A DNA stretch of 64,000 nucleotides from Muriicola soli (GTDB lineage: Bacteria > Bacteroidota > Bacteroidia > Flavobacteriales > Flavobacteriaceae). Location: the NCBI RefSeq assembly GCF_004139715.1, contig NZ_CP035544.1, positions 992,001 to 1,056,000 of the forward strand, in the 5' to 3' direction. Below the pieces are notes generated by a model. That model did not search any database. It saw nothing but the letters and a program-made list of their open reading frames with translations, and was not told the origin of the DNA. The stretch's first letter is position 1. Every line of letters begins with the position of its first letter. Shown here piece after piece: positions 36,760-63,589 of the stretch. A program made the position numbers and the translations under genes.

Positions 36760-38016
36760 TTAGATGATCATTCCTGCTGCAACAGTTTCATTGGTTTGAT
36801 CATCAATTAGGATGAGACTTCCGGAAAACCGATTGTCTTTGTAGGCGTCAATGAGCAAAGGTTTTGTTGTTCTTAACTTTACCTTACTGATATCATTCAT
36901 TGTAAGTTGTTTGTCGTCCTTGATTCTCTCCATGGTATTGATGTCGTATTTATACATCACTTCCCTGATCATCGCCTTTTGTTCATTTGAAGTATGCATT
37001 AGGGTATATTTAGCTCTTGGTTGTGCCGGACGGTTGTTCAACCAGCATAACATCACCTCTATATCCTGTGAAGAATCAGGGACATTGTTAGAACGAACAA
37101 TCATATCACCTCTACTTACGTCGATATCATCTTCCAGTTCAATTGCGATGGACATGGGCGCAAATGCTTCTTCAAGTTCGCCGTTCGGACCGGTGATCGA
37201 TTTTACTTTTGATGAAAAACCGGAAGGTAGAACAGTGACCTTATCTCCTTTTCTGTAAAAACCACTGGCAATTCGCCCTGCATAGCCCCTGTAATCAATA
37301 AAACCGTCTCTTTGAGGTCTGAGCACAGTCTGAACAGGGAATCTGGCATCCACTTTGTTGAGGTCACTACTGATATGCATGGTCTCTAAAGTGTGTAACA
37401 ATGGCGCGGCCTGGTACCAGGTCATGTTGTCAGATCGGTTGACTACGTTATCTCCCAGCAGCGCACTTATAGGAATAAATCGGATATCTCTTATCAATAA
37501 TTTAGCGGCAAATTCCTCAAATTGATTGACGATCTTATGAAAAACATCTTCAGAGAAACCGACCAAATCCATCTTGTTAATACAAACGATAACGTGGGGA
37601 ATATGCAATAAAGATGCAATAAAGGCGTGCCTTTTAGTTTGTTCTATCACCCCGTGTCTCGCATCCACTAAAATAATAGTAGCATTAGCCGTTGAAGCTC
37701 CGGTTACCATATTCCGGGTGTACTGCACATGGCCGGGAGTATCAGCGATTATAAATTTACGTTTTGGAGTTGTAAAATACCGGTAAGCCACGTCAATGGT
37801 AATTCCCTGTTCCCGCTCATCTCGAAGGCCATCCGTAAAAAGAGCCAGGTCTACCCCGTCATGTCCTTTTTTCCTGCTGGTATTCTCTATGGCTTCCAGC
37901 TGGTCTTCAAAAATCGATTTGGAATCGTACAATAATCGGCCAATCAAGGTGCTTTTCCCGTCATCAACGCTGCCGGCAGTTGAGAATCGAAGTAATTCGT
38001 TGCGTTCTATTTCCAT
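36760..38016 (-). CDS. cysN: Sulfate adenylyltransferase, GTPase subunit
   Basis: Regulatory GTPase half of ATP sulfurylase, which with CysD makes adenosine 5'-phosphosulfate (APS). The 418 residues show the EF-Tu-like GTP site: STAGSVDDGKSTLIGRLLYDSK (P-loop), DVAYRYF, IIADTPGHVQYTRNM (G3) and CINKMDLVGF (NKxD), followed by two beta-barrel domains (RPQRDGFIDYRGYAGRIASG). It is the last gene of the cysQ-DUF2061-cysC-cysD-cysN run, 12 bases after cysD. The ATG at 38016 is used; a TTG immediately before it is also in frame. It is not fused to CysC, which is encoded separately upstream. Confidence 0.96.
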   Translation of the reverse strand: MEIERNELLRFSTAGSVDDGKSTLIGRLLYDSKSIFEDQLEAIENTSRKKGHDGVDLALFTDGLRDEREQGITIDVAYRYFTTPKRKFIIADTPGHVQYTRNMVTGASTANATIILVDARHGVIEQTKRHAFIASLLHIPHVIVCINKMDLVGFSEDVFHKIVNQFEEFAAKLLIRDIRFIPISALLGDNVVNRSDNMTWYQAAPLLHTLETMHISSDLNKVDARFPVQTVLRPQRDGFIDYRGYAGRIASGFYRKGDKVTVLPSGFSSKVKSITGPNGELEEAFAPMSIAIELEDDIDVSRGDMIVRSNNVPDSSQDIEVMLCWLNNRPAQPRAKYTLMHTSNEQKAMIREVMYKYDINTMERIKDDKQLTMNDISKVKLRTTKPLLIDAYKDNRFSGSLILIDDQTNETVAAGMII

Positions 38017-38028
38017 CAAATACTTGTA

Positions 38029-38934
38029 TTAAAAATAACCCAGTTTTTTCCGATCCTCCATGGCGTTTTCCGAGCGTTTATCATCGCTTCGGTTTCCCCG
38101 TTCTGTCTGGCGCATAGCCGATACTTCCTGTACTATCTTCTCCAGCGTGTCTGCTTCAGATTCAATACCACCGGTGATAGTGATGTCGCCTAATGTTCTG
38201 AATCGGATCTTTTTGGTAACTACTTCTTCCCGCTCATCGAGCCTCAGAAATTCCGAATTTGGAATCCATGAATTGTTACGCCAGACAACCTCACGCTCAT
38301 GAGCCAGGTAAAGGGAGGGGATCTCGATTTTTTCCTGGAGGATATAGTTCCAGACGTCCATTTCTGTCCAGTTACTGATGGGGAAAACCCGGAAATGCTC
38401 CCCTTCAAAATACTTTCCGTTGAAGAGATTCCATAATTCGGGCCGTTGATTTTTGGGATCCCATTGTCCGAAATCATCCCTGTGGGAGAAAAAGCGCTCC
38501 TTGGCCCTGGCTTTTTCCTCATCGCGACGGCCTCCGCCTATGGCACAGTCGATTTTATTACTTTCTATGGCATCGAGAAGAGTAGTAATCTGCAGGGCGT
38601 TACGAGTTGCACTTTTTCCTTTTTCTTCAGCTACCCTTCCCTGATCTATGGATTCCTGCACAGATCCAACAATAAGTTGCGCGCCCAGGTCTTTGATTAA
38701 CCGGTCTCTGAATTCAATAGTCTCCGGGAAATTATGCCCGGTATCCACATGCATCAGAGCAAAGGGAATTTTACTGGGATAGAAGGCTTTTTTAGCCAGG
38801 TGTGTCACCACAATAGAATCTTTTCCCCCTGAAAAAAGGATTACGGGGTTCTGGAACTGGGCCCATACTTCCCGAAGCACAAAAATGGCTTCCGATTCTA
38901 ATTCTTCAAGATAACTCAGGTAGTACTTACTCAT
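38029..38934 (-). CDS. cysD: Sulfate adenylyltransferase, catalytic subunit
   Basis: Catalytic half of ATP sulfurylase, an ATP-pyrophosphatase-fold enzyme; 301 residues as usual. Visible are the nucleotide site NPVILFSGGKDSIVVTHLAKKAF, HVDTGHNFPETIEFRD, the strongly conserved AIGGGRRDEEKARAKERFFSHRDDFGQWDPKNQRPELWN, FPISNWTEMDVWNYI and the C-terminal LGDITITGGIESEADTLEKIV. It produces APS from sulfate and ATP together with CysN (12 bases downstream). Its first bases overlap the cysC stop by 8 bases, so the three enzymes of PAPS formation are translationally linked. Confidence 0.97.
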   Translation of the reverse strand: MSKYYLSYLEELESEAIFVLREVWAQFQNPVILFSGGKDSIVVTHLAKKAFYPSKIPFALMHVDTGHNFPETIEFRDRLIKDLGAQLIVGSVQESIDQGRVAEEKGKSATRNALQITTLLDAIESNKIDCAIGGGRRDEEKARAKERFFSHRDDFGQWDPKNQRPELWNLFNGKYFEGEHFRVFPISNWTEMDVWNYILQEKIEIPSLYLAHEREVVWRNNSWIPNSEFLRLDEREEVVTKKIRFRTLGDITITGGIESEADTLEKIVQEVSAMRQTERGNRSDDKRSENAMEDRKKLGYF

Positions 38935-39529
38935 TGTTCCTCAGTTTTAGCTTAGGTAGGATGGCCTTAAATATTAATTCCACCGCTTCCTCCACCGTAT
39001 TTTTTTCTGTAATCATTACTGCCGGATCTGTTGGAGCTTCATAAGGAGCAGAGATCCCGGTCATATTTGTAATTTCACCCTTTCGTGCTTTTTTATAGAG
39101 TCCTTTTACGTCTCGTTCTTCACAAACCTCCAGGCTGGTATTTACAAAAACTTCTACAAAGGTATCAAGTCCGACAATATTCCGGATAAGGATTCTGTCT
39201 TTTTCATAAGGGGCAACAAAAGCAGCAAGAATAACGACCCCGGCGTCCACAAATAATTTGCCTATTTCACCAATCCTTCTGATATTTTCCGAGCGGTCTT
39301 CAGGACTAAAACTGAGGTCTTTGTTGATCCCGCTCCTCATGTTGTCCCCGTCGAGGATAAATGTATTTATGTTCAGTCCCTGTAATTTTTGTTCTAGGGC
39401 ATTGGCTATAGTCGATTTGCCAGAACCCGACAACCCCGTAAAAAGGACCATAAATGAGTTATGCCCGCTTCTTTGTCGCCGATCTTCCGGAGTGACTTTG
39501 AAATGGTGTTTTACGATGTTTCTTTCCAT
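38927..39529 (-). CDS. cysC: Adenylylsulfate kinase
   Basis: Phosphorylates APS to PAPS, the donor for sulfotransferases or for reduction. The 200-residue product has the P-loop VLFTGLSGSGKSTIANALE, the FILDGDNMRSGINKDLSFSPEDRSENIRRIGE segment that binds APS, VVILAAFVAPYEKDR and FVEVFVNTSLEVCEERDVKGLYKKARKGEI, plus the ISAPYEAPTDP loop, all family standards. It overlaps the DUF2061 gene upstream by 19 bases and cysD downstream by 8. No PAPS reductase or sulfite reductase gene is in the window, which leans toward use of PAPS for sulfation. Confidence 0.96.
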   Translation of the reverse strand: MERNIVKHHFKVTPEDRRQRSGHNSFMVLFTGLSGSGKSTIANALEQKLQGLNINTFILDGDNMRSGINKDLSFSPEDRSENIRRIGEIGKLFVDAGVVILAAFVAPYEKDRILIRNIVGLDTFVEVFVNTSLEVCEERDVKGLYKKARKGEITNMTGISAPYEAPTDPAVMITEKNTVEEAVELIFKAILPKLKLRNNE

Positions 39530-39942
39530 GACTTTTTCTTACGCCTTTGTTCCAGGCCAAAATTGATTTTATACCAGGTTCGTTCGTGAAAATAATATAA
39601 AATCATTTTGGTAACTACTTCAGCAACACCAATCTGTAGTCCGGTGAGTGGGCTACCCGAAATGTACCAGGACAATAAAAAAGTATCCAGAGTACCAATA
39701 GCCCTCCATGTAAAGGTCTTAAATAAATGTCTTTTTCTACTCTCTTTAATACCAATATTGAACCACACCCTTTCGTGCAGGTAGTACAAAATCATCTTAG
39801 TGACCACTTCCGCCCCGCCAATTTTTAATCCGGTTAGAGGGTTACCGGTTATGATCCAGGAAAGCACTATCGTATCGAGCGTGCCCACCATACGCCAGGT
39901 GATGGTTTTGGCAAGGTGCCGTTTGTGGGAGGAGGTTGCCAT
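39511..39942 (-). CDS. Tandem DUF2061 membrane protein
   Basis: 143-residue small membrane protein made of two copies of the DUF2061 unit. Copy one (about 8-62) reads LAKTITWRMVGTLDTIVLSWIITGNPLTGLKIGGAEVVTKMILYYLHERVWFNI. Copy two (about 70-125) repeats it nearly residue for residue (FKTFTWRAIGTLDTFLLSWYISGSPLTGLQIGVAEV...). Each unit has two membrane helices and ends in YYxHERxW. DUF2061 genes often sit within cys operons; a role in sulfate uptake or in holding the sulfurylase complex is possible but unproven. It overlaps cysC (19 bases) and shares one base with the cysQ stop (TGATG), so it is tightly coupled to both. Confidence 0.9.
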   Translation of the reverse strand: MATSSHKRHLAKTITWRMVGTLDTIVLSWIITGNPLTGLKIGGAEVVTKMILYYLHERVWFNIGIKESRKRHLFKTFTWRAIGTLDTFLLSWYISGSPLTGLQIGVAEVVTKMILYYFHERTWYKINFGLEQRRKKKSWKETS

Positions 39943-40745
39943 CAGGTAGAGACCAGAAAATAGGGGTTGAGTAGATTTTCTTTATTGTAGCGTAGTTCTT
40001 TTTTGGTGTGCTGATCGGTAACTTTTAAACCCACGGCACTGCAGATGGCATGGCCTGCTGCTGTGTCCCACTCCATAGTAGGTGCGAAACGCGGATAAAC
40101 ATCCGCCTTTCCTTCGGCTACCAGGCAGAATTTCAAAGAGCTTCCTTTTGAGACGATCTCAACTTCTTTATTCTCTTTTTCTAAGTCGGCAATGAAGTCT
40201 AAGGTGTCCTGATTCATATGCGACCTGCTTCCTACTACGCCTATCTTTGTGCTCGTCTTGTTGGAGGGATAAATTCTATCTTTTTCCAAAAACAACTCTT
40301 CAGGCATAGAATGATCATTCCCGATAAGGCTCTTATAGGCCTTCTTCTGGGCTACATCGGCATAATATAACTCTCGGGTAACAGGAACGTAGATCACGCC
40401 CAAAATGGGTCTCCCGTCCTGAATAAGGGCGATATTAACGGTGAATTCGCCATTGCGTTTGATAAACTCCTTAGTACCGTCAAGCGGGTCAACCATCCAG
40501 CAGGTTTCCCATGATTTTCTGCTGTTGAAATCAATTTGTTTGTTTTCTTCACTAATGATAGGGTAGGGGGTTTTGACAAGGTATTCATTGATCACCTTGT
40601 TAGATGCCAAGTCTGCCTCTGTCAAGGGAGATTGGTCCTTCTTATATTGAGTGATCAAACCAACCTTATCATAAACCGAGAGGATGACATCTCCAGCAGA
40701 AATAGCTGCAGCTGACATCAAACTTAGAAAATCATTCTTCTCCAT
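39942..40745 (-). CDS. cysQ: 3'(2'),5'-bisphosphate nucleotidase
   Basis: Removes the 3'-phosphate of PAP, the inhibitory by-product of PAPS-using reactions, and may also lower PAPS. The 267-residue inositol-monophosphatase-fold enzyme shows SPLTEADLASNKVI, IISEENK, WMVDPLDGTKEFIKRNGEFTVNIAL (metal-binding Asp residues) and, near the end, MEWDTAAGHAIC. It stands first in the cys gene run and starts only 15 bases after the last FemAB-like gene, so it appears to belong to one long minus-strand transcript with the MBOAT/FemAB-like genes. Confidence 0.96.
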   Translation of the reverse strand: MEKNDFLSLMSAAAISAGDVILSVYDKVGLITQYKKDQSPLTEADLASNKVINEYLVKTPYPIISEENKQIDFNSRKSWETCWMVDPLDGTKEFIKRNGEFTVNIALIQDGRPILGVIYVPVTRELYYADVAQKKAYKSLIGNDHSMPEELFLEKDRIYPSNKTSTKIGVVGSRSHMNQDTLDFIADLEKENKEVEIVSKGSSLKFCLVAEGKADVYPRFAPTMEWDTAAGHAICSAVGLKVTDQHTKKELRYNKENLLNPYFLVST

Positions 40746-40760
40746 TATTAGGGGGTCTTA

Positions 40761-41924
40761 TTAGGTATATTCAAAGTACAGTTCATATGAATTTTTTTCA
40801 CTGATAAGCAGGTATTTGCGCTCGGGCTCCAGTTCAAGAATGGTTATACTTGACAAGTGTTCCTGTGTCAAATATAGAAAATCATAAACGGGCCTTTTCA
40901 AAAAGTGATAATCTTCCAAGTGGATTTCCTTCTCTGAGCTGTAATTCGCCTTTATATTCGATCCTGAATCACATTTTTTCAACCTATATCGAAGATCTCT
41001 CTTGGACATGATGGTCATCCTATTGAACTTAGCAATTAAAGCGTAAATAAAATCGTTGACCTTCTTCGACTTTAAAAATTCTTTAAATTTTACTCTGGTG
41101 TGTTCAATAACACCCAGACTTTTGGAAATAAGGGTATTGGGATATATGATAAAGTGATTATAAGGACTTATCACATTGCTCCATCGCCTCTTATAGTCCA
41201 TTCCCCCGACTCCCATTTCAAAAAATTCATAATCATTATCAATGCACCATTCCAACTGCTTGTAGATTTCAATATTTCCGAGTCCAAACTTGGAATAATC
41301 TGTATCAAAGGAAGAAACAGAACTGAACAAAATTCGACCAAAATGGTAGTTCAAGGAGATCTCAATGGGATCCTCCCCGTTGTAAATTACAAATAAGGAA
41401 GCCGATTTATTTCTGATCTTGGTTTTGGAGGATTCAAAAATCCGATCCCATTCTTTTATATCCTTACTTCTTTCTTTTTTCTCCTGAAATCTCGAATTTA
41501 TCATAGATTTCAAACGGTTCATCAAAAGGGTATAGGAATGATCAGTGATAGATCCGTAATGAAGTTCATACCTGATGTTAAAGCAGGTTTCCAATCGCCT
41601 GATATTTCTCAGAATCACTTTTCTGCCGTTGGCGTTGAATTGTGTTTTCAGATATTCATCTGCACTTGTGAGTCCTTTTGTAGAAATTCCATAATTCCAG
41701 TTAAATTGTGAGATCTTTCTGCATAAGTAGTCCCCGGTTTCAAATTCTGCATAAAAAGGAACCAAACTCAAGGAATAATTCAATGATCTTTTTGACTTTG
41801 ATTTTTCTGCCAAGTTACATAGGACTTTCCCTTCAGAATAAGTGATGTACTTCAACAAGTCAGGTTTATGGACCTCCTTATAAAAGGTCGTCATAAAGTT
41901 GATCTTATGAATCCTCCCGAACAT
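40761..41924 (-). CDS. FemAB/CelD-like GNAT acyltransferase paralog 1 of 6
   Basis: 387-residue cytosolic protein, last of six tandem paralogs. The N-terminal half carries GRKVILRNIRRLETCFNIRYELHYGSI and SMINSRFQEKKERS. The second half has the core shared by the array, SLFVIYNGEDPIEISLNYHF, then SSFDTDYSKFGLGNIEIYKQLEW and FFEMGVGGMDYKRRWSN. These patterns match the Acetyltransf_6 (CelD/BcsL) branch of the GNAT/FemAB superfamily, which transfers acyl or aminoacyl groups to sugars or peptides. A C-terminal module (about 325-387, FLKRPVYDFLYLTQEHL, KYLLISEKNSYELYF) is shared with paralogs 2-4. The ATG overlaps the upstream stop (TAATG), so translation is coupled. Donor and acceptor are unknown. 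Confidence 0.82.
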   Translation of the reverse strand: MFGRIHKINFMTTFYKEVHKPDLLKYITYSEGKVLCNLAEKSKSKRSLNYSLSLVPFYAEFETGDYLCRKISQFNWNYGISTKGLTSADEYLKTQFNANGRKVILRNIRRLETCFNIRYELHYGSITDHSYTLLMNRLKSMINSRFQEKKERSKDIKEWDRIFESSKTKIRNKSASLFVIYNGEDPIEISLNYHFGRILFSSVSSFDTDYSKFGLGNIEIYKQLEWCIDNDYEFFEMGVGGMDYKRRWSNVISPYNHFIIYPNTLISKSLGVIEHTRVKFKEFLKSKKVNDFIYALIAKFNRMTIMSKRDLRYRLKKCDSGSNIKANYSSEKEIHLEDYHFLKRPVYDFLYLTQEHLSSITILELEPERKYLLISEKNSYELYFEYT

Positions 41925-43114
41925 TAGTTTAGTTTAACAATTTCTACTGAACGGTAATTGTTCTCGCCCTGGAAAATATAAATACCCGTAGTATTATTTT
42001 GCCTGTAAACCTTCACATGAGCAAAGTTTTCCTGATTCTGGTGAAGAAAGTAGTTCAACGCTCTCAGTAGTTGTGAATTTCCATAAGGATTGACTGTTGT
42101 AAATCCTTCAAATGAAGGAAATAATTTGCCTTCCTCTAAGGTCCTGACATCATATGGAACTACGACTGTATTATTAGAATTCTTAAATCTGTATACCTTT
42201 TTCCTGAATTTACTAATTGCGAGATGAATTCTAAATCTCTTCAGTAGATTGATTAGGTGAAAACGCAGGGTCAGCCAATGGGATCTGACTGCTGCTCCGG
42301 ATATATAAAGAATATTTTGATCGGGTACATAGGATACCTGCTTGTAGCAATAGATGGTATTGATCCATTTTCTCTTGTGAAAGAAATCACCTCTTCCCAT
42401 ATCAAAACGATCAAATTTGTGTTTAAAAGCCCACTCGAGATGATTGAAGGTATTGATATGACCTACGTTAAACATGGCGTAGTCAATATCGTAGGCACTA
42501 TTCCAGTGAAAGAGTACTTTGTTGTGTAGGAAATTGAGAGTTATGCAAATGGGTTTTGAATTGCTATAAATGACAAAAAGTGCTGCTTTACCTTTAAGAA
42601 TTAGCGGATACATTACAGATTGATACAGATCGAGATAGGGTAATTCGAAATTAGTTTCCTCTTTTTCCTGAAACCTTCGTTCGATCATATCTTTCAGAGC
42701 TTCGAAAAGTAAATCGTACTCCTCTTTATCGATCGATCCACAGTAGACCTTATACCCAGGATTCAAACACTTGTCCAGTCTTTTTTTATAACGCCTCAGC
42801 TGTGAATACCTCGCTTTTCTGACATGCTTCCACAGATAATCCTCAAAATTTTCATACGGAAAGAGTTCAACAGCATAACCATGGTATAAGGTAGATTCAA
42901 ACTTTTTTAAAGCCGTCAGATCAGATTTTTTTTCCAGGCTGTAGTATCCTGGCAAGTCGTAAATAGACAGCATCTTGCCAACTTTTTCTTCCGATTTTTG
43001 ATCTGAGGGGGGTTCGAAGATTTCTGAAGTTGTTGAATCTTTTACCCCTTTAATAAAAAAAGGAAACTGCTTTTCCTTCAAGACGAAATCCAATAAGAAG
43101 CTGTATTTTTCCAA
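41924..43114 (-). CDS. FemAB/CelD-like GNAT acyltransferase paralog 2 of 6
   Basis: 396-residue member of the array. It starts at a TTG (43114); the start is supported by alignment of EKYSFLLDFVLKEKQFPFF with the ATG-started NRLIFLKEFLNKEKPFPFF of paralog 3. Array signatures: RYSQLRRYKKRLDKCLNPGY, YCGSIDKEEYDLLFEALKDMI, RRFQEKEETNFELPYL, then ALFVIYSNSKPICITLNFLH, SAYDIDYAMFNVGHINTF and RFDMGRGDFFHKRKW. The C-terminal module is present but more diverged (LLRALNYFLHQNQENFAHVKVY, GIYIFQGENNYRSV). No signal peptide or membrane helix is visible. It is 94 bases downstream of paralog 3 and joined to paralog 1 by a stop/start overlap. Confidence 0.82.
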   Translation of the reverse strand: MEKYSFLLDFVLKEKQFPFFIKGVKDSTTSEIFEPPSDQKSEEKVGKMLSIYDLPGYYSLEKKSDLTALKKFESTLYHGYAVELFPYENFEDYLWKHVRKARYSQLRRYKKRLDKCLNPGYKVYCGSIDKEEYDLLFEALKDMIERRFQEKEETNFELPYLDLYQSVMYPLILKGKAALFVIYSNSKPICITLNFLHNKVLFHWNSAYDIDYAMFNVGHINTFNHLEWAFKHKFDRFDMGRGDFFHKRKWINTIYCYKQVSYVPDQNILYISGAAVRSHWLTLRFHLINLLKRFRIHLAISKFRKKVYRFKNSNNTVVVPYDVRTLEEGKLFPSFEGFTTVNPYGNSQLLRALNYFLHQNQENFAHVKVYRQNNTTGIYIFQGENNYRSVEIVKLN

Positions 43115-43208
43115 GGGTAGATCAATTGCCGGTTAGGGCATATACATTTACAAATATCTGAATATTTACCTTTTAGACCGGGGCTGTTGAAGGGAATATA
43201 TAAACAAA

Positions 43209-44366
43209 TCATCCCACTTGAATCAACAAGTCTTCTTTTTCGCCTAAAACCAGGAAAGTGGACAAATCAGGATGTTTGTAAACCTTGGTTTTCCTGTATT
43301 CCTGCTTAGATGTAAACAGGAAGTCGTACACTGTTTTTCTTAGGAATTGCAATTTGGGTTGCCCTTCAATATCAACTTTTGTCATATGACGCAGTTCAGC
43401 CTCCGATTCTAAACGAGAAACAGTTTTTGTGTGCACTGTATGTCCCTTGGGCTGCAGCAAATTAGAATATTTTGTTATACTTTTTTTAGCCTGCTTGAGA
43501 TGCACTTTTCTAGCGAATCGAAACAGCATTTCCCGTAAGGAGAGGGAGGCATACGGCAATAGTCCACCTAGTCTGCCGGCAGTTGCATTTTTTCGAATTA
43601 CGATTTGATGATAGTTGTAATAAGAGTTGGTATACCACTTGCTTTTATAGGGCTCATAGCCCTTCAGAAGGTCATAGATTCTAAACTCCATCGAAAAAAG
43701 CCATTCGATGTTCTTTGCCATATCGATTAGGCCCGGATGAAATTTAGAATAATCCGTATCATAGCCGCTCATGATATAATAAGCAAGGTCATCCTTAAAC
43801 ATATTGATTCTGATACTTATAGGTTTGCTGCCGTCGTAGATTACAAAAAGACAGGCCTCTTTCTTGAGGATCAGCGGATATAGCTTGTTTTCAAATTCAT
43901 GCAGATACGGGAGTTCATAATTAGATTCGCCTTTTTCTTCGAATCGTTTAACCAAGAAAATTTTTAAAGCGGCGAACAAAGCGTGATACTCTTCCTTGTC
44001 TACCGAACCGTAATAAGCCTCATAGCGAATGGGGAAGCAGGACTCGAGGCGCTGTATGTAACGGCGCAGGTTAGACCTGCTTTTAGCGCCTTGAATCGAC
44101 TCTAAATACCTCTTATAATCTGAGAAGGACGAAAGATCCACATAGTATCCTTCTATTGATCTTATCTTGTGAATGTTATATTCCCCCTCTCGTACTATTA
44201 TTCTAAAATAATCAGGGACATCTTTGATTATTGATACGGAATCCACTTTGCTTACCGCGTCTTTATTCGGACTCAGGTAGTTCTTTGCACGGAAGACGAT
44301 ATTTTCAAAAAAGGGAAAGGGTTTTTCCTTGTTGAGAAATTCCTTAAGGAAAATAAGCCTATTCAT
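43209..44366 (-). CDS. FemAB/CelD-like GNAT acyltransferase paralog 3 of 6
   Basis: 385-residue array member. The N-terminal helix NRLIFLKEFLNKEKPFPFFENIVF is followed by SRSNLRRYIQRLESCFPIRYEAYYGSVDKEEYHALF and KRFEEKGESNYELPYLHEF. The core has CLFVIYDGSKPISIRINMF, SGYDTDYSKFHPGLIDMAKNIEW and IYDLLKGYEPYKSKWY. The C-terminal module is clear (FLRKTVYDFLFTSKQEYRKTKVYKHPDL, STFLVLGEKEDLLIQ). It is closest by eye to paralog 2 over the first 200 residues, suggesting these two split late. It overlaps the paralog 4 stop by 8 bases. The superfamily is inferred from motifs; the substrate is unknown. Confidence 0.82.
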   Translation of the reverse strand: MNRLIFLKEFLNKEKPFPFFENIVFRAKNYLSPNKDAVSKVDSVSIIKDVPDYFRIIVREGEYNIHKIRSIEGYYVDLSSFSDYKRYLESIQGAKSRSNLRRYIQRLESCFPIRYEAYYGSVDKEEYHALFAALKIFLVKRFEEKGESNYELPYLHEFENKLYPLILKKEACLFVIYDGSKPISIRINMFKDDLAYYIMSGYDTDYSKFHPGLIDMAKNIEWLFSMEFRIYDLLKGYEPYKSKWYTNSYYNYHQIVIRKNATAGRLGGLLPYASLSLREMLFRFARKVHLKQAKKSITKYSNLLQPKGHTVHTKTVSRLESEAELRHMTKVDIEGQPKLQFLRKTVYDFLFTSKQEYRKTKVYKHPDLSTFLVLGEKEDLLIQVG

Positions 44367-45576
44367 AGTGCTGGTTTAAAGTATTGTTGTCAAGAATGAC
44401 TTCCCGCGAATTTTCTTTACCCTGAAAAAGAAAAGTTCGGTTTTCTGATCTTACAGAATAAATAGCTACATCTTGTATGCGTTCTCCACTGGCAAAGAGA
44501 AAGTCGACTAAAGGCTTCTTGAGGTATTTACCGGTATCTGAGTTGAGTTGAATACGTTCTCCTAGTACATCTGAAGTATTGCCCTCGCGCTTTCTGATTG
44601 AATAAGAAACAGGAGAATATTTTTTATTTCTCTGTCTGAACCACCATGTACTTAGCTTTTTATAAAGCTTGTCCAACTTTATTTTCTTCATCAGCCTTAT
44701 GAGATTGTAGAATAAGTAAATCCTTGAATAAGTGAGGTTACCAAAAAGAATGGCTCTTGTTGAGGATTTATGGTATAGGACAGACTTAATGAAGTAGTAT
44801 TCCTTATCGATAAGTTTTGACTTGTAGGTGTATTGACCTTTAAGAAGGTCAAATTTTTCTATGCCGTTTGCATAGGCCCATTCTAACAGGCCCAGTAATT
44901 CGAGCATCCCGAGAGAATATTTGGCAAAGTCTACATCATACGATTTTAAATAGCCGTAAAGGGTGTTCCCATAGATCAGGTTTACACTAAAACAAATGGG
45001 TTTCTGATTGTGTGAAATGACTGAAATACAGGCTCTTTTACTATTGATCAGGGAGTAAAATGTACGGTGGTAATGCGACCAATGGGGCAGATCATCATTT
45101 TTTATTCCCTTTTCGCGAAATCGCATGATAAGCATTTCCTTGAATTGATCAAATAATTGATCATAAAGGGATTTGGAAATAGATCCGTGGTAAAACTGAT
45201 GTGTTATATCAAAACTCTGGCAGAGCTTTCGTTTTTGCCTTTTGAATTCTGCTCTTTGTTTCGATGAAAACTTAGCCTTGAGTAATTGTTTATAGCTCGA
45301 ATAACTCGTTAGAAGAATCAGGGAACCTTTAAAAGATCGTATCGTTTTTTGGCGGTATTCCTGAAAGGGAGAAGTGCTGTAGTAACCCGGAATATCAAAG
45401 ACCAGATAGTGCAAGGGGTCTGTCTTCTCCGATATTTTGGATTCGTCTCTGTATACTTCTTTTTCTGACAGACGATCGCTGACCTTATTGAAATAAGGAT
45501 ACAGATCATTTTTTTCCAGGAACAGATGTATAAAATCCCTGGGTACAGTACCCGTCAACCTATGAAGCACACGCAT
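44359..45576 (-). CDS. FemAB/CelD-like GNAT acyltransferase paralog 4 of 6
   Basis: 405-residue array member and the longest. Array marks: QRAEFKRQKRKLCQSFDITHQFYHGSISKSLYDQLFDQFKEML, MRFREKGIKNDDLPHW, then CISVISHNQKPICFSVNLIYG, KSYDVDFAKYSLGMLELLGLLEWAY and KFDLLKGQYTYKSKLIDKEYY. The C-terminal module reads YLKKPLVDFLFASGERIQDVAIYSV and TFLFQGKENSREV. The Trp of the usual YKxKWxN motif is replaced by Leu, so this copy may differ in substrate. A perfect -7 box (TACCTTTG on this strand, 45604-45611) lies 28 bases before its ATG, so paralogs 4 to 1 and the cys genes could also be expressed from an internal promoter. Confidence 0.82.
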   Translation of the reverse strand: MRVLHRLTGTVPRDFIHLFLEKNDLYPYFNKVSDRLSEKEVYRDESKISEKTDPLHYLVFDIPGYYSTSPFQEYRQKTIRSFKGSLILLTSYSSYKQLLKAKFSSKQRAEFKRQKRKLCQSFDITHQFYHGSISKSLYDQLFDQFKEMLIMRFREKGIKNDDLPHWSHYHRTFYSLINSKRACISVISHNQKPICFSVNLIYGNTLYGYLKSYDVDFAKYSLGMLELLGLLEWAYANGIEKFDLLKGQYTYKSKLIDKEYYFIKSVLYHKSSTRAILFGNLTYSRIYLFYNLIRLMKKIKLDKLYKKLSTWWFRQRNKKYSPVSYSIRKREGNTSDVLGERIQLNSDTGKYLKKPLVDFLFASGERIQDVAIYSVRSENRTFLFQGKENSREVILDNNTLNQHYE

Positions 45577-45603
45577 GATTTAAAAGTAAAAAATCCTTTT
45601 TAC

Positions 45604-45611
45604 CAAAGGTA
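45604..45611 (-). promoter_or_regulatory. Candidate internal -7 promoter box inside the FemAB-like array
   Basis: Reads TACCTTTG on the minus strand, identical to the tsaD box and at the same 28-base distance from the start codon. It lies in the 51-base gap between paralogs 5 and 4. No -33 TTTG at standard spacing was found, so the call is tentative. Confidence 0.4.
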
Positions 45612-45627
45612 TGAAACCCAAAAATGA

Positions 45628-46557
45628 TCATCTATTTCCTCCTCTTAACAGGAAAAGTACACGGTCCGTCGAAAGTCGAGGGGGCAGAACATTTTTTCGA
45701 AAATAGAGTTTAGCTTTCCACAGGCTTATCAGCAACTGAACATATACTAATCTGAAAACCCCCTGCTTATAGAAAATATGGGCCTTAAAGCGATACTTGC
45801 AATTACTCCACTTCTCTTTGTAATAGGTATAGCCCAACATAAGGTCATATAACCGGATGCTATAAGTAAAACACCATTCAAGTTGCTTTAACATGCTGAT
45901 ATCCGGAAGGTTAAATTTATTGTAATTAATGTCAAAAGCCTGAATATGGCTGTAGAGCGCATTTTCCAGGTGAAAATTCAAGGTTATGCTGATGGGCTTG
46001 TCATGATTGTAAATAACAAAAATCGAGGCTTGCTTTGCGCGGATCATGGGCAATATTCTTGCCCTTAAACTGTCCCATTGTGGAAGGTCCCGGTTCAGGA
46101 TCTTTTTTTGGTTAAATCGTGCTTTGAGGAGTCTGTAGAATTCATCGAAAGTGTCATGATAGTTAGTTTCGTTTACAGGATCCCCGTAAAAAACCCGGTA
46201 GTCGATCTTGCCGGATGTTTCTAGCTTTTTTTTCTTGTTGTAAAGGTTTTTTTGGTTTCTTTGACTCAGTACTTCGGCCATGTATTCTTTTTCGCTCTTG
46301 TATTTTGAAAGGTCCAGTGCAAATCCCTGGTGGAGATCTACGGATGTATTTGCCAAATCTGATGAAACTAAATCTAATTCAAAATAGCCCGGAATATTCT
46401 GCACCCTTACGACTTTGATGTCTTTTGGAATGCGAATTTTGGTTGGGACGTCTATTTCTGTATGTGTAACTTTGTTATACAGGGGAAACCGATAGAGGAG
46501 GGGAGCTTCTCTCTTCAACAGCAGATCGAAAATAAAATTATAACTGTACTGTAACAT
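45628..46557 (-). CDS. FemAB/CelD-like GNAT acyltransferase paralog 5 of 6, without the C-terminal module
   Basis: 309-residue array member, the shortest. It has the usual N-terminal part (NQKNLYNKKKKLETSGKIDYRVFYGD, ARFNQKKILNRDLPQWDSL) and the core IFVIYNHDKPISITLNFHL, QAFDINYNKFNLPDISMLKQLEW and LYDLMLGYTYYKEKWSN. It stops soon after the GNAT core, at about the point where paralogs 1-4 enter their C-terminal module, so either it lost the module or the others gained it. The end (RLSTDRVLFLLRGGNR) has no match in the array. It overlaps the paralog 6 stop by 20 bases. Confidence 0.8.
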   Translation of the reverse strand: MLQYSYNFIFDLLLKREAPLLYRFPLYNKVTHTEIDVPTKIRIPKDIKVVRVQNIPGYFELDLVSSDLANTSVDLHQGFALDLSKYKSEKEYMAEVLSQRNQKNLYNKKKKLETSGKIDYRVFYGDPVNETNYHDTFDEFYRLLKARFNQKKILNRDLPQWDSLRARILPMIRAKQASIFVIYNHDKPISITLNFHLENALYSHIQAFDINYNKFNLPDISMLKQLEWCFTYSIRLYDLMLGYTYYKEKWSNCKYRFKAHIFYKQGVFRLVYVQLLISLWKAKLYFRKNVLPPRLSTDRVLFLLRGGNR

Positions 46558-47563
46558 CCTGTTTCCTCGATTGGAAATAAAATCTAAGACGATTTATAAA
46601 GCGAAAAAAATTTAATTGTCTCAATATTCGCTTACATTCATATAGAATGTATATTAAATTTGCGGTTACTACAGAATAGAAAGACTTTGGATCGTAAATG
46701 ATATGGTAGTTAAAATGGTAAAGGGTATTCGCCCATCTGTATTTGTACTCATAATTACCTTTGGCAAAATCCAGTGAATCAATTTTTTGATCATAGCACC
46801 AATTAAGTAATTCTAATATGTTTAATGTTCCAATTCTATATTTGGCATAACTGATATCAAAAACTCTTAGAGTATCAATTAGTTTCGATCCTTCTAGCAT
46901 TATGAGGGTTATCGCAATTGGTTTGTCTCTAATATATGTTACGAAGAGACCCGCTTTGTCTTCCATCATCAAGGGATATGTAACCTTGTGATAAAATACC
47001 CATTCGGATTGGTTCAAATCTCTATTGTATTCCTTCTTCTGTGAAAATCTCTTGGTCATAAGATTTCGAAACGATTTAAAGAGGTTTTCGTAGGTATCCT
47101 TGGATGTATCCGATAAGTGCATTCGGTAACTGATATCGGGTACCTTTTCCCATTTTCGTTTGTAACGTCTTAGTTTAACCCTACTCTGGGCGCTTAAAGT
47201 ATCTCGTAAATATGAATCTAGGGTGGGGTACTCTTTAAAGTTACATAGATATCCGGCATATTGATTAGAGACAAGAATTTTTAAGTGATTGCTACTTAAC
47301 AATTTTGCATCCGGTAAAAAGCTAGATGGGACATCGAAAATTACAAACACTTTATTTTTTTCTCCTAAAGTCTCGTTTGCAACTATCGAATAGCTGAGAC
47401 CCTTGGTCAATGTTCCTCCCAGGTTATAAAATACAGGAAGAAGAGGTTTTTTAATAAATAAGAAATTCCCAAATAGAGCAGATCGATGTACCGAGCAGTT
47501 TTTAGCGAAGTATTTCAACCAATACTTCTGATAAGTTTCACTCAGGAATGGGTTTGTAACCAT
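46538..47563 (-). CDS. FemAB/CelD-like GNAT acyltransferase paralog 6 of 6, first of the array
   Basis: 341-residue member nearest the MBOAT pair. The array pattern is visible but the most diverged: SRVKLRRYKRKWEKVPDISYRMHLSDTSKDTYENLF, KRFSQKKEYNRDLNQSEW, then LFVTYIRDKPIAITLIML, RVFDISYAKYRIGTLNILELLNW and SLDFAKGNYEYKYRWANT. The C-terminal module is absent. The N-terminus (TNPFLSETYQKYWLKYFAKN) differs from the others and starts like some polysaccharide-cluster GNAT proteins. It begins 12 bases after the SGNH-like gene and so is part of the MBOAT transcript. No signal peptide is seen. Confidence 0.8.
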   Translation of the reverse strand: MVTNPFLSETYQKYWLKYFAKNCSVHRSALFGNFLFIKKPLLPVFYNLGGTLTKGLSYSIVANETLGEKNKVFVIFDVPSSFLPDAKLLSSNHLKILVSNQYAGYLCNFKEYPTLDSYLRDTLSAQSRVKLRRYKRKWEKVPDISYRMHLSDTSKDTYENLFKSFRNLMTKRFSQKKEYNRDLNQSEWVFYHKVTYPLMMEDKAGLFVTYIRDKPIAITLIMLEGSKLIDTLRVFDISYAKYRIGTLNILELLNWCYDQKIDSLDFAKGNYEYKYRWANTLYHFNYHIIYDPKSFYSVVTANLIYILYECKRILRQLNFFRFINRLRFYFQSRKQDVTVQL

Positions 47564-47575
47564 AATAAGTAAATC

Positions 47576-48535
47576 CTAAAAGTGAGTTTTATTGAGTTCC
47601 TTGTAACTTTTTTCTCTTATACGAACGACAAGATCAGATGTAAATTGCCGAGCACTTTCAGAATATAAATGGGATCCATCGTAGGTTTTATATTTTTCAG
47701 AATCCTGTATAAAATTCAGATAGGGTACATTCTTATGCATCGCAATACTGTCCATTTGCCGGTCAAATGAGTCCCAACGTTCGTTTTCCAGACTCAAAAT
47801 TTCCTTTGCTGCAGGCATCCTCACCAGGAACACCTCGCCTTTATCTTTCAACAGGGATATTGTCTTCACAAAGTATTCCAACCTATTTTGTTTAAATTCT
47901 TCAGTTTTTAATTTAATTTTATAAAAGCGTAAGTTAAGTTCTGACCAGTGTTTCATATCCTCTTCTGTAATTGTCTTTCGAGAAGTATTCAGTACTACCT
48001 CATTCCAACCATCCTCGTGAAAAACGAAGTGATCCCAGATGGAGGTATTGAAGAATACATTATATAATGATGATCCATAACAACAGCTGAGATAGTCATA
48101 GTTTGGTTTCTCGGTGAATACTTTAAGTTTACCCAGAATGGTCTTTTCATCAAACTTCTTTATTTCTTCATCATCGAATTCCTTTGGAGCGGTAAAGGCA
48201 CCGGGGTTAACGGAGAGTATAAAAAGGCCATTTTCTGTTTTATCGTCTAGTTTTTTGCGAATCGAATTGAGGTAAATCTCTCCGTAAAAGGATTGGTTCA
48301 TTGCAAAGTTGACCATTTGAAATGACTTGTCTGACCTTACTAGGGAATCAGACAAAATCTTTGGTACAATACCCTGATCAGCTCTGGAGAGCCCCAGGAT
48401 TAAACCGTCTGCTTTTTGGGTAAACTTCGTGTAATACTCGTCTACGGGCCCTTTTGACAATTGATTGAGCATCGTGGCATAGGCTCCAAAAAGCAGAAGA
48501 CAAAAGATGCAAACTTTTAATAAAAAGGTCCTCAT
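47576..48535 (-). CDS. Membrane-anchored SGNH-hydrolase-like protein, MBOAT partner (DltD/AlgJ-like role)
   Basis: 319-residue protein with one N-terminal membrane helix (TFLLKVCIFCLLLFGAYATML) and a periplasmic domain. The strand end LILGLSRADQG (Ser50) and the late YDGSHLY (Asp286, His289) have the order and spacing expected for the Ser and Asp-His blocks of SGNH-type esterase/transferase domains. Such proteins sit beside MBOAT acyltransferases in alginate, cellulose and teichoic-acid modification (AlgJ/AlgX, DltD) and take over the acyl group outside the membrane. The MBOAT gene ends 5 bases upstream. The fold call rests on these motifs and the neighbour; no closer family name could be given. 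Confidence 0.75.
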   Translation of the reverse strand: MRTFLLKVCIFCLLLFGAYATMLNQLSKGPVDEYYTKFTQKADGLILGLSRADQGIVPKILSDSLVRSDKSFQMVNFAMNQSFYGEIYLNSIRKKLDDKTENGLFILSVNPGAFTAPKEFDDEEIKKFDEKTILGKLKVFTEKPNYDYLSCCYGSSLYNVFFNTSIWDHFVFHEDGWNEVVLNTSRKTITEEDMKHWSELNLRFYKIKLKTEEFKQNRLEYFVKTISLLKDKGEVFLVRMPAAKEILSLENERWDSFDRQMDSIAMHKNVPYLNFIQDSEKYKTYDGSHLYSESARQFTSDLVVRIREKSYKELNKTHF

Positions 48536-48540
48536 TGATC

Positions 48541-49989
48541 CTAGAATTGAAAATATATAAATGAATGCTGTCTGTTGATTGCAAAAAGGGCTATGGCAAG
48601 GATGTAAGTTCCGTATATCGCCATTTTTCGAAGCTGCGATTTGTTTTCCACAAGTTCGTATATCCGGTCATTTCCTTTTGCATAATGAATGGCCTGTACC
48701 AGAAGGATCAGGACCAGGGATAAACCAAGTTCAAAGTAATTACCCAGGATGTTAATATGTAGGTTTTGGATTCGGGTTAGATTTTTGATATAAACAAAGG
48801 CGATTTCAACAGATGGGGAACGGAAAAAGATCAGCGAGCCACATAGGTAGGTCATGGTCACAGCCCAACCTCCCATAGCTTGTAATTCTCTTGAGATACC
48901 CAGCCTTCTAAAGAGGCGTTTCCTCCATCTGCTAGTGCCCGTTTCAAGGATCAGGAGCAAAGCACTGAGCAAGCCCCATATTACAAAAGTCCAGTTTGCT
49001 CCGTGCCAAAGACCAACAATAAAGAAAATGATGAGGACATTTCTTATGAGGACCGGCCTGCGGACAATGAGGCCACCCATGGGGACAAACAGATAGTCCC
49101 TTAGCCATTGCATAAAGGAAATGTGCCATCGGTTCCAGAAGTCGGCAGAAGAGGTGGCAAAAAGCGGTTTATTGAAATTCTGCATCAGATCATAGCCCAT
49201 TAACCTCGCTGTACCGATAGCTATAGACGTATATGCAGAGAAATCGTAATACAACTGCAGGGCAAAGAAACCCGCCGCGATGATTAAGGGCAGGCCCTTG
49301 TATAGTTCAGGGTCTGTATAAACTTCATCTACATAGATTCCCAGACGGTCTGCCACCACAACCTTTAAGAAAAACCCCCAGGCAATCATGATAAGGCCTC
49401 TTTTGATTTGTGGAATTTTGGGGATGATTTGTTTCCTGAATTGGGGTAGGAGGTTACCTGCCCTTTCTATAGGTCCTGCGACTAATTGTGGAAAGAAAGA
49501 AACAAAAAGGGCAAAATACCCCAGGTGTTTTTCAGGTTTTATTTTACCACGGTATACATCAATGGTATAGGACATGGTCTGAAAGGTGTAGAAGCTGATT
49601 CCAATAGGAAGCAGGAGTTGGCCCAGATTGTAACCGCCTTTCTGTACTTCCCCTGTGACTTCCAAATTAAAAAACCGCAATACGCTCCCGAACGACGTCT
49701 CAAAAAAAGATGCGTATTTAAAAAAGAAAAGCATTCCTACATTAACCCCTATACTCAGGAAGAGTAAGGATTTTTTATACTTCTCTTTTACGCTCACCAT
49801 CCTTAATGCACAGAAGTAATCTACGAGTGTAGAGGTGATCAATAATAGTACCAGTAGGGGTTCGTGTTCCATATAGAAATAGTAGCTCCCCAGTAAAAGC
49901 CATAACCATCTGTATCTGAATGGTATAAGATAAGAACCAAAAACCATTATGATCAAAAAAGGAATGAACTCGAAAGAGTTAAAGTTCAT
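48541..49989 (-). CDS. MBOAT-family O-acyltransferase (AlgI/DltB-like)
   Basis: 482-residue multi-pass membrane enzyme that moves an acyl group from a cytosolic thioester donor to an extracytoplasmic acceptor. Family landmarks: FRYRWLWLLLGSYYFYMEHEP at the N-terminus, LLPIGISFYTFQTMSYTIDVYRG, FVSFFPQLVAGPIERAGNLLPQF, LQLYYDFSAYTSIAIGTARLMGY, NFNKPLFATSSADFWNRWHISFMQWLRDYLF and the catalytic-His motif GLWHGANWTFVIWG (about 327-340). All standard residues are present, so it is likely active. It heads the long run of SGNH-like, FemAB-like and cys genes. Donor and acceptor are unknown; the ACP encoded 5 kb upstream is a candidate donor carrier. Confidence 0.92.
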   Translation of the reverse strand: MNFNSFEFIPFLIIMVFGSYLIPFRYRWLWLLLGSYYFYMEHEPLLVLLLITSTLVDYFCALRMVSVKEKYKKSLLFLSIGVNVGMLFFFKYASFFETSFGSVLRFFNLEVTGEVQKGGYNLGQLLLPIGISFYTFQTMSYTIDVYRGKIKPEKHLGYFALFVSFFPQLVAGPIERAGNLLPQFRKQIIPKIPQIKRGLIMIAWGFFLKVVVADRLGIYVDEVYTDPELYKGLPLIIAAGFFALQLYYDFSAYTSIAIGTARLMGYDLMQNFNKPLFATSSADFWNRWHISFMQWLRDYLFVPMGGLIVRRPVLIRNVLIIFFIVGLWHGANWTFVIWGLLSALLLILETGTSRWRKRLFRRLGISRELQAMGGWAVTMTYLCGSLIFFRSPSVEIAFVYIKNLTRIQNLHINILGNYFELGLSLVLILLVQAIHYAKGNDRIYELVENKSQLRKMAIYGTYILAIALFAINRQHSFIYFQF

Positions 49990-51785: not shown

Positions 51786-51795
51786 TCTAGACGAT

Positions 51796-52776: not shown

Positions 52777-52792
52777 TTGGTAATGTTTAGTT

Positions 52793-54772: not shown

Positions 54773-54795
54773 AGTTGCAGGGGATTAAGTAAAGG

Positions 54796-55044
54796 CTATA
54801 ACTTTCTTTCAACGAAAGAATTAATAGAATTAATAGATTTAAAATTTTCTTCAAGCAATTCTTCGTCTTGTGTTTCTATCGAGAACTCTTCTTTCAGAAA
54901 TTCAATTAAAAATAACAATCCCATAGAATCCAAAAGACCGGTTTCGAAAATTAAGGTATCATCTTCAATGTTTTCTGTACTTGCTAGTGTAGTTTGGAAT
55001 AGATACTGTCTAATTTTATTTTTGACTTTAGAAGTTACAAGCAT
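54796..55044 (-). CDS. Free-standing acyl carrier protein
   Basis: 82-residue acidic helical protein with the phosphopantetheine attachment motif ETGLLDSMGLLFLIEFL, Ser40 being the modified residue. Before it come DDTLIFETG and after it EEFSIETQDEELLEENFKSINSINSFVERKL, the usual helices II-IV of an ACP. It differs from the fatty-acid AcpP motif (DSLD) and is more like carrier proteins of secondary pathways, for example DltC-type or exosortase-cluster ACPs. It is the first gene of the run leading to asnB, the NadE-like gene and the AMP-ligase. A candidate -7 box lies 140 bases upstream. Confidence 0.9.
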   Translation of the reverse strand: MLVTSKVKNKIRQYLFQTTLASTENIEDDTLIFETGLLDSMGLLFLIEFLKEEFSIETQDEELLEENFKSINSINSFVERKL

Positions 55045-56612: not shown

Positions 56613-58367
56613 TTATGCATCTAACCTGTATAAAGGGAAAAAATCAAAATCCCTTGAGGCTTCATCATTTTTAAAATTATTCCAATATTCTTTACAGAGT
56701 GTATTGTAAACCTTTTCATTTGCTATATGCTTCCATACCTTAAACTCCTTAATATCTTTAGAAAAGGAAGATTTAAAGTAAAATAAGGAATCTTCGTTAC
56801 CGCCTAAGCCTCCGCCTAGATTAAAATACTCGTAACCTTTTTTCGTAGCTTTTATTCTTGTTATATCAATCAATAGCCTTAAGGGCGTATTATTGAGGAA
56901 CTCAACCTTTGTTCCAGACAGGTGATATTGAACTATACCATTAGTCATGACCATAAGAGCACCACAAACAATTTCATCAGTTTCGATTGATCTGGCGTAG
57001 ACTATTTCTGCATTGAAGTCACTACTGTTAAATAATCTAGTGAAGTATTCTTTATTAAAATAATATCGTTTTTCTGCGCCTACTCTTTCCATGGTTTTAT
57101 AGTATAGAGAAATAAAAGGTAAAATCTCTTCAGTGTTTTTGCAATATTCTATTGTAAATAATCTCCGGGTTTTGTTCAAATACCTTTTTGTTGTTTTTGA
57201 AAATAAAGCACGTTGTGCATTCAAATCAGGGGTTAAATCAATATTGACGACGGGTCCGATATTTACAATCTCACCTATTCCTTCTAATATGTCTTGCTGA
57301 TTTCTAATAAATGGGTTAAGTCTTGAAAATACTGAGACAATATTTTCTCTTTCAATAAATTGATTAAATACATTTTTAAAGCGGGCTTTATCAAAATTTA
57401 AATAGTGAGTATTGCAAATAGGACCGGCATAACCGTATACACTACTTAAATCATAATAAGTTGTATTTTCAATAGCTCTTTTTAGGAAGGGTATTGCAAT
57501 TTTATTTTGTCCGTCATTGTAAAAAAACATTAAAATTGACTCTTCATCTCTTTTAGACAGTTGGTGATAATCAAAGGTGTGATAGAAATCATAATCACCC
57601 ATCTTAGAAAGGATCTCATCCCATTTTTTTTTGGTAGTTATTATTTCATATGGATTATTACGAATTTCTGGTTCTTCTTGTATTCTTTGAATCCCCTTTA
57701 GAATTTCCTTTCGTTTTATAATCTTTCTAATAAATCTTGCGGGCACTCCATAAACCATATTGTTATCCTCAACGTTTTTGTTTGTCAGAGACTTAGCGCC
57801 AATAAAACAATTAGCACCAATGGTAATGCCTTCTAATACACCAGCACCTAATCCAATAGTGGAACATGGACCAATCTCAACCCCGCCTCCAACAGTACTT
57901 CTTGGAGCCAAACTAGAAAAATCACCCATGATGCCATCATGATCAAGCGAAGAAGAGGTGTTCAGGATACAATGACTACCAATTGATGAATCACTATTAA
58001 CGATTACTCCTGGCATAATTACGGTTCCTGGACCCACACTACAATTTTTCCCAATTATTGAAGAGGGGTCAATAGCCTTAACAAAATTAAAATCGGGTGA
58101 AATCGATTGAATTTTATCGAACATAGCTTCTCTAACCCAATTATTGCCGATAGAAATTATACCCGATTTAAAATTATAGGTTTCCATCAACTGGTTAAGA
58201 GTTTCTTCGGACCCAATTATTTCATAATCAAGGACTTTGGTGCCAATTGGCTTAAAAGAATCAATTAAACCTACTATAGAGTATATTCCTTGTTTCTCCA
58301 CTATATCCATCACTACCTTGGAATGGCCGGAAGCTCCTATAAGTACTATGTTCTCCTTTTTGGACAT
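56613..58367 (-). CDS. PglD/NeuD-like sugar O/N-acyltransferase fused to a FemAB-like transferase
   Basis: 584-residue two-domain protein. Residues 1-215 are a complete PglD/NeuD-type sialic-acid-family acyltransferase: a Rossmann-like start (VLIGASGHSKVVMDIVE), then a left-handed beta-helix with LDHDGIMGDFSSLAPRSTVGGGV, whose His fits the PglD catalytic position, ending KNVEDNNMVYGVPARFI. Residues about 240-584 are a FemAB/Acetyltransf_6-type GNAT domain (FYHTFDYHQLS, ALFSKTTKRYLNKTRRLFTIEY, ARSIETDEIVCGALMVMTNGIVQYHLSG, YEYFNLGGGLGG, SLFYFKSSFSKDIKEFKVW). The fusion couples acylation of a sugar amine with a second acyl or aminoacyl transfer. The reactions are inferred. Confidence 0.85.
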   Translation of the reverse strand: MSKKENIVLIGASGHSKVVMDIVEKQGIYSIVGLIDSFKPIGTKVLDYEIIGSEETLNQLMETYNFKSGIISIGNNWVREAMFDKIQSISPDFNFVKAIDPSSIIGKNCSVGPGTVIMPGVIVNSDSSIGSHCILNTSSSLDHDGIMGDFSSLAPRSTVGGGVEIGPCSTIGLGAGVLEGITIGANCFIGAKSLTNKNVEDNNMVYGVPARFIRKIIKRKEILKGIQRIQEEPEIRNNPYEIITTKKKWDEILSKMGDYDFYHTFDYHQLSKRDEESILMFFYNDGQNKIAIPFLKRAIENTTYYDLSSVYGYAGPICNTHYLNFDKARFKNVFNQFIERENIVSVFSRLNPFIRNQQDILEGIGEIVNIGPVVNIDLTPDLNAQRALFSKTTKRYLNKTRRLFTIEYCKNTEEILPFISLYYKTMERVGAEKRYYFNKEYFTRLFNSSDFNAEIVYARSIETDEIVCGALMVMTNGIVQYHLSGTKVEFLNNTPLRLLIDITRIKATKKGYEYFNLGGGLGGNEDSLFYFKSSFSKDIKEFKVWKHIANEKVYNTLCKEYWNNFKNDEASRDFDFFPLYRLDA

Positions 58368-63581: not shown

Positions 63582-63589
63582 AATAAAAT

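Follow-up and report, generated by a model that had tools for sequence, protein, structure and literature searches.

Enzymes of the FemX type are known to act on peptidoglycan, an organism having one to three of their genes, or to occur singly in antibiotic pathways (PMC12945691), Orf11 of such a pathway being FemABX-related (PMC12945691). The nearest studied exopolysaccharide protein with a FemX-like fold is HfsK, the N-acyltransferase-like protein of the Caulobacter holdfast, which the excerpts of its description describe as a two-domain GNAT protein with FemX as the closest solved structure, acting on an exopolysaccharide adhesin (PMC5362036). A FemAB-family protein is also found in the exopolysaccharide loci of the XrtA/PEP-CTERM type (TIGR03019). 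Here, we describe a run of six genes for related transferases in a 64,000-nucleotide stretch of the Muriicola soli genome (the window; bases 992001-1056000 of a 3.07 Mb single-contig genome), which belongs to an ordered set of separately conserved genes recurring in many genera of the Flavobacteriaceae. No description of Fem-like arrays in exopolysaccharide loci of this family was found in the open-licence papers searched.

A preliminary description, made from the sequence alone, had pointed to six consecutive minus-strand genes for proteins of 309-405 residues at positions 40761-47563 of the window, with overlaps of 1-20 bases in several junctions, and all six open reading frames (ORFs) were found at those coordinates. 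We number them as slots 1 to 6 in the order of transcription, all on the minus strand. Slot 1 (F6, 341 residues, 46538..47563; Pfam PF13480, Acetyltransf_6, at 53.0 bits; slot-1 clade supported at 100/100) is the first gene of the array, and is followed by slot 2 (F5, 309 residues, 45628..46557; 42.4 bits; clade 100/99), both being short forms. The longer members are slot 3 (F4, 405 residues, 44359..45576; 65.3 bits; clade 100/99), slot 4 (F3, 385 residues, 43209..44366; 62.5 bits; clade 99/96), slot 5 (F2, 396 residues, 41924..43114, with a TTG start as listed; 57.4 bits; clade 100/98), and slot 6 (F1, 387 residues, 40761..41924; 36.3 bits; clade 100/100), the last of the array, which also has ATE_C and FemAB_like matches, both under their cut-offs. 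The overlaps are of 20 bases (F6/F5), 8 bases (F4/F3), and 1 base (F2/F1), and the other two junctions are gaps of 51 bases (F5-F4) and 94 bases (F3-F2). The two short members lack a C-terminal domain of about 100 residues that the other four carry, and which in F3 spans residues 283-385 (43212..43520). Searched alone, this domain gave no clear fold match in the PDB (best E 0.71, best Z 4.0), which is not evidence that its fold is new.

The six proteins share 23-32% identity pairwise. All of them pass the gathering cut-off of PF13480 (36.3-65.3 bits against 22), and BLASTP connects every pair with E-values of about 1e-23 to 1e-51. Chance similarity is ruled out by these scores. The motif pattern at low identity that had been read from the translations is present, with 15 invariant columns among the six, including R141-F142-K145, P182-I183, D203, W222, G236, and K241 (F3 numbering, used throughout). 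The name FemAB-like that they had been given holds by fold, FemX being the top structural match of the slot-4 model (see below), but not by Pfam: none of the six matches PF02388 (FemAB, cut-off 24 bits), even at E-values up to 10, and PF04339 is matched only under its cut-off. Profile searches of the PDB sequences with the array family returned chance matches only and no FemX chain, and the same search with the FemAB-like neighbour of the arrays likewise found no FemX chain.

The slot-4 model (predicted local distance difference test, pLDDT, 90.8) matches the double-GNAT fold of FemX, which has two GNAT-like domains with a cleft between them. Residues 5-273 align with FemX 6snr (Z 17.6, 228 residues, root-mean-square deviation 4.2), and the leading structural matches are the FemX proteins of S. 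aureus (Z 17.6) and W. viridescens (Z 16.4), then the peptide synthases Sba18/Sbb17 (15.4), FemA (14.7), and MprF/L-PGS (14.5), all of them aminoacyl-tRNA (transfer RNA)-dependent by entry title or family. In comparison, the coenzyme A (CoA)-dependent GNAT proteins reach a Z of at most 13.3 over about 140 residues and mostly match one domain. The array family shares with FemX, FemA and FemB the double-GNAT fold (residues 5-280 of slot 4, Z 17.6 to 14.7), an invariant lysine that aligns by motif with the FKxxF lysine of FemAB, and the presence of several paralogues, here with presumably separate roles; it differs from them in being unmatched by PF02388, in belonging to exopolysaccharide clusters of Gram-negative bacteria, in numbering up to seven in one run, in the extra C-terminal domain of most slots, and in an acceptor that is presumably not peptidoglycan. 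Sba18, Sbb17 and the Orf11-type aminoacyl-tRNA-dependent peptide synthases (streptothricin and BD-12 pathways; fold matches at Z 15.4 and 15.3) serve a small-molecule antibiotic pathway instead. HfsK has, according to the excerpts of its description, a 25-residue C-terminal extension rather than a domain of about 100 residues, and those excerpts do not describe it as a member of an array (PMC5362036).

K241 lies in the YKxKW motif and aligns with the lysine of the FKxxF motif in the FemAB-like neighbour. It is present in all 190 members compared, followed by G236 (189), R141 (188), and G212 (188). Counting back from the aligned chain ends, rather than by residue-level superposition, places K241 at about FemX residue 302-306, and the catalytic residue of W. 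viridescens FemX is Lys305 (PMC12945691). The helix at 94-110 with the [RK]LR[RK]Y motif, which the preliminary description had pointed out, has a mean net charge of +5.2, and by analogy may be likened to the positively charged helix proposed to hold the tRNA acceptor stem in FemX (PMC12945691), a likeness that does not establish the two as the same helix. The pyrophosphate motif of CoA enzymes, [RQ]xxGx[GA] located where the helix following strand 4 begins, is absent in 188 of the 190 members and present in two (region 200-222), the usual form at this place being [FY]xxGx[IV]. Together, the FemX-like fold, the basic helix and the missing CoA motif point, short of proof, to an aminoacyl-tRNA donor, to which we give a slight preference.

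A further 54 stretches were fetched and their ORFs called, giving 193 family members. In a tree of 45 sequences from eight arrays all six slots are monophyletic (bootstrap 99-100), and in the large tree every window gene groups with genes of the same position. Forcing the window genes into one clade costs 477 log-likelihood units (approximately unbiased, AU, test p 1.6e-79), which rejects a lineage-specific duplication. The window genes have mean identities of 34-41% to same-slot genes elsewhere and of 25-26% to other slots (39% and 26% for slot 1). Gene order is kept: among 22 distinct arrays, 231 pairs of shared ortholog groups are concordant and one discordant, against a maximum of 65% after shuffling, and in 25 distinct arrays from named loci, with group labels taken from best BLAST hits and some genomes shared with the first set, the count is 397 concordant to 3 discordant (397/400). 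These comparisons are not independent, as operons share descent. The slot-1 group (group 0) is first in its run or alone in 38 of 38 cases. The layout of the window (type A), with an MBOAT gene, a DltD-position gene, and then slot 1 to slot 6 or 7, recurs in about ten arrays, those of Cellulophaga and Flavivirga among them. In a second array type other clades occupy the middle and end positions, slot 1 still being first, and some arrays are without middle slots (e.g. groups 0-1-5-11-2 and 0-3-6).

In three pairs of closely related genomes the ratio of nonsynonymous to synonymous differences (pN/pS) is 0.14-0.32 in every slot. This agrees with the preliminary description, which had taken the array for an old duplication kept under selection. 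It had also named beforehand the pattern that would support its proposal, one family with conserved catalytic residues and separate orthologous groups in other genomes, and this is what the slot clades, the AU test and K241 give; regarding the organisation of the array, the evidence goes beyond what it had stated, since the set is ordered, separately conserved, and recurs in many genera. Its chemical proposal, of specialised transferases that each place an acyl or aminoacyl group at a different position of one polymer, is still an inference. Judged by selection and conserved residues, the array copies are working genes. Columns in which each slot is conserved but the slots differ from one another are over-represented in 181-202 and 228-241, beside K241 (11 of 20 eligible columns, compared with 22 of 84, P 0.0016, for a region picked after the data were seen), and their location fits different acceptors or donors in each slot. 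In-frame stops and short fragments of 92-240 residues occur in a few arrays. Fragments of slot genes in this size range, perhaps decaying copies, were seen in Arenibacter (L035/L092, L120).

In the genomes sampled, named hits of the family are all Flavobacteriaceae. Its profile matches in 9 of 60 relatives of the window genome; in a sample of 397 genomes from the family it is present in 89, representing 70 of 237 genera (E 1e-20 or better), in runs of one to seven genes plus strays; and in a phylum-wide sample of 395 genomes it is present in only five, all Flavobacteriaceae. A profile search from slot-1 relatives gave 80 named loci, all of this family, including Zobellia, Maribacter, Arenibacter, Cellulophaga, Muricauda/Flagellimonas, Winogradskyella, Robiginitalea, Mariniflexile, and Flavivirga. 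Cultivated species that bear arrays include Cellulophaga fucicola DSM 24786 and Mariniflexile fucanivorans DSM 18792. The family was not found in eight other genomes of the window's own genus, so that either the window genome acquired its copy by transfer or these relatives have lost theirs. Among other Bacteroidota genomes sampled as a control, most have 0-3 PF13480 genes and no more than three were noticed side by side, which bears out the earlier remark that six in a row is unusual. Three-gene Acetyltransf_6 runs in other families of the phylum (G481:C4:576239-579445 and G456:C17:24087-27428) apparently belong to other subfamilies.

The array lies in an exopolysaccharide or capsule cluster of the Wzx/Wzy type. 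Slot 1 starts 12 bases after the DltD-position gene (47576..48535, minus strand), which encodes a 319-residue protein with no Pfam match (SGNH in gene maps) and with syntenic relatives of 43-48% identity in nine fetched arrays and several named ones. This is preceded by a gene for a DltB/AlgI-like MBOAT O-acyltransferase (48541..49989, minus strand; PF03062 at 91.7 bits, DltB model under its cut-off; syntenic at 55-63% identity), and the two genes are conserved partners of the type-A arrays, with the DltD-position gene directly before slot 1. Further upstream, in the same direction, are genes for an adenosine monophosphate (AMP) ligase (50322), a nicotinamide adenine dinucleotide (NAD)-synthase-like protein, an asparagine-synthase-like amidotransferase, an acyl carrier protein (ACP, 54796), a hexapeptide transferase, a sugar-phosphate transferase, a NeuD/PglD-type sugar acetyltransferase fused to a FemAB-like domain (56613..58367, minus strand; PF17836, PF00132, FemAB at 17.7 bits, TIGR03570 at 190 bits), and a glycosyltransferase. 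Most other loci have the FemAB-like protein encoded by a gene of its own, commonly at position -1 relative to slot 1 (66 of 98 loci), with PF02388 at 44.4 bits in one such relative; the gene usually preceding slot 1 has a weak match (32 bits against a cut-off of 260) to TIGR03019, the model of the FemAB-family protein of the XrtA/PEP-CTERM loci, whereas the six slot proteins do not match this model. Beyond the window, reading of the translations suggests further glycosyltransferases, flippase-like and polymerase-like proteins, uridine diphosphate (UDP)-sugar enzymes, a PglF-like dehydratase, an aminotransferase, an export protein, and a second pair of MBOAT and DltD-position genes, the latter higher up the same polysaccharide locus (L001:3513-5886).

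Close relatives of the ACP-AsnB-NadE-ligase module (window 50322-55044) with 59-83% identity were seen in L043, Arenibacter hampyeongensis (L082), and Robiginitalea marina (L122). They adjoin slot-1 genes without a long array, and the stretches fetched around the arrays of other genera do not contain them, which indicates that the module is not needed by the six-slot set and travels separately from the arrays. The module was therefore dropped as a required partner.

In our view, somewhat likelier to be right than wrong, the array is an old ordered set of FemX-fold transferases that decorate exopolysaccharide precursors, probably with aminoacyl groups. The six would be cytoplasmic enzymes with the double-GNAT fold serving the Wzx/Wzy-type cluster, each slot being a separate orthologous enzyme, presumably with its own specificity. 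Most likely, each would attach a single aminoacyl (or other acyl) group by an amide linkage to the amino groups of a lipid- or nucleotide-linked repeat unit before its export, and the neighbouring MBOAT and DltD-position proteins would then O-acylate the polymer. The founding enzyme was probably that of slot 1, as it is the one most often found alone and is first in the arrays, and later slots would have been added downstream and kept. The fixed order suggests a stepwise decoration line for the polymer. In a stronger form of this proposal, up to seven or eight FemX-fold enzymes of marine Flavobacteriaceae would act as a collinear, tRNA-dependent line and place amino acids in a defined series on an exopolysaccharide, as a ribosome-independent peptidyl decoration preserved in gene order; we consider this unlikely. 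Several observations weigh against decoration with aminoacyl groups in ordered steps. The fold model covers slot 4 only, its structural matches share 9-15% identity with it, and FemX leads the next families by just 1-3 Z units. A FemX-like double-GNAT fold is not proof of aminoacyl-tRNA use, because the donor of HfsK is not known, as stated in the excerpts of its description (PMC5362036). The O-antigen of Cellulophaga fucicola, which bears an array, contains no amino acid (PMC3210612), though the O-antigen may not be the product of the array locus, and there are no tRNA genes in the 64-kb window, though none need lie there. In addition, inheritance or transfer of the operon as a block can yield a conserved order without ordered steps.

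A further possibility is that the slots act in succession to extend a single peptide side chain or cross-bridge residue by residue, in the manner of FemX, FemA and FemB. The FemX fold and the position of slot 1, first or alone and with further slots downstream in fixed order, speak for such a chain, but descent explains the order equally, arrays without middle slots would be badly tolerated by a strict chain, and the papers searched yielded no polysaccharide of these genera that carries peptides; we thus regard this possibility as doubtful. Somewhat less doubtful, although still rather improbable, is that the six are CoA-dependent N-acyltransferases that place acetyl or longer acyl groups, each on a different amino sugar of the repeat unit, without any tRNA. 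All six match a GNAT family of Pfam (Acetyltransf_6), the C-terminal GNAT domain fold is shared with CoA enzymes (Z up to 13.3), and the presence of PglD/NeuD, PglF-like dehydratase and aminotransferase genes suggests that amino sugars are produced by the cluster. However, 188 of 190 members lack the CoA motif where it would be expected, and the two-domain arrangement over residues 5-280 is best matched by aminoacyl-tRNA-dependent families, CoA enzymes mostly matching a single domain.

The common direction of the AMP ligase, ACP, DltB-like MBOAT and DltD-position genes raises the alternative of a Dlt-like system in which the donor would be an aminoacyl or acyl group loaded on the carrier protein of the cluster, and the structural matches include a GNAT protein that works together with a carrier protein (8zt4, SbzI/SbzG, Z 11.6). 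We find this quite improbable, given that the relatives of the module in L043, L082 and L122 are without a long array and that it is missing near the arrays of other genera. Finally, the short fragments and in-frame stops in a few arrays could suggest that the additional copies have no roles of their own, being duplicates that are redundant or in decay, but this is contradicted by the purifying selection on all slots, and K241 is kept and the orthologs hold a fixed order across genera, so that we give it hardly any credence.

Relative to the described FemX-type enzymes, the fold is found here in up to seven copies in one run, separately conserved and in fixed order, in a polymer cluster of many marine genera. 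If the donor is aminoacyl-tRNA, the array would link the translation pool to an extracellular polysaccharide and would represent a natural kit of transferases with graded specificity. Related species differ in their number of slots, from one (Pricia antarctica) or two (Zobellia uliginosa) to six or more (Flavivirga rizhaonensis, Cellulophaga fucicola) and at most seven or eight, and a comparison of their polymers would directly test the idea of one slot for one substituent.

A few neighbouring genes may be of further interest. A PylC-like ATP-grasp protein (carbamoyl-phosphate-synthase-like) and a HAD hydrolase are often encoded at positions -3 and -2 before slot 1 (e.g. L099:7293-8261 and L073:7950-8606), ahead of the FemAB-like gene, and could serve to produce or activate either the group that is transferred or its acceptor. 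Downstream of the array the window has genes for CysQ, a DUF2061 protein, CysC, CysD, and CysN, which suggests a supply of 3'-phosphoadenosine 5'-phosphosulfate (PAPS) for a sulfated product; no sulfotransferase was identified alongside this block. The CysQ/CysD/CysN block (window 36760-40745) also follows arrays in Robiginitalea SC105 and Zeaxanthinibacter (L105, L075, L078), with the DUF2061 protein and CysC in L105. At 62189-63632 of the window, two adjacent ORFs (313 and 173 residues) without a Pfam match lie beside a beta-helix protein encoded at 60058-62091.

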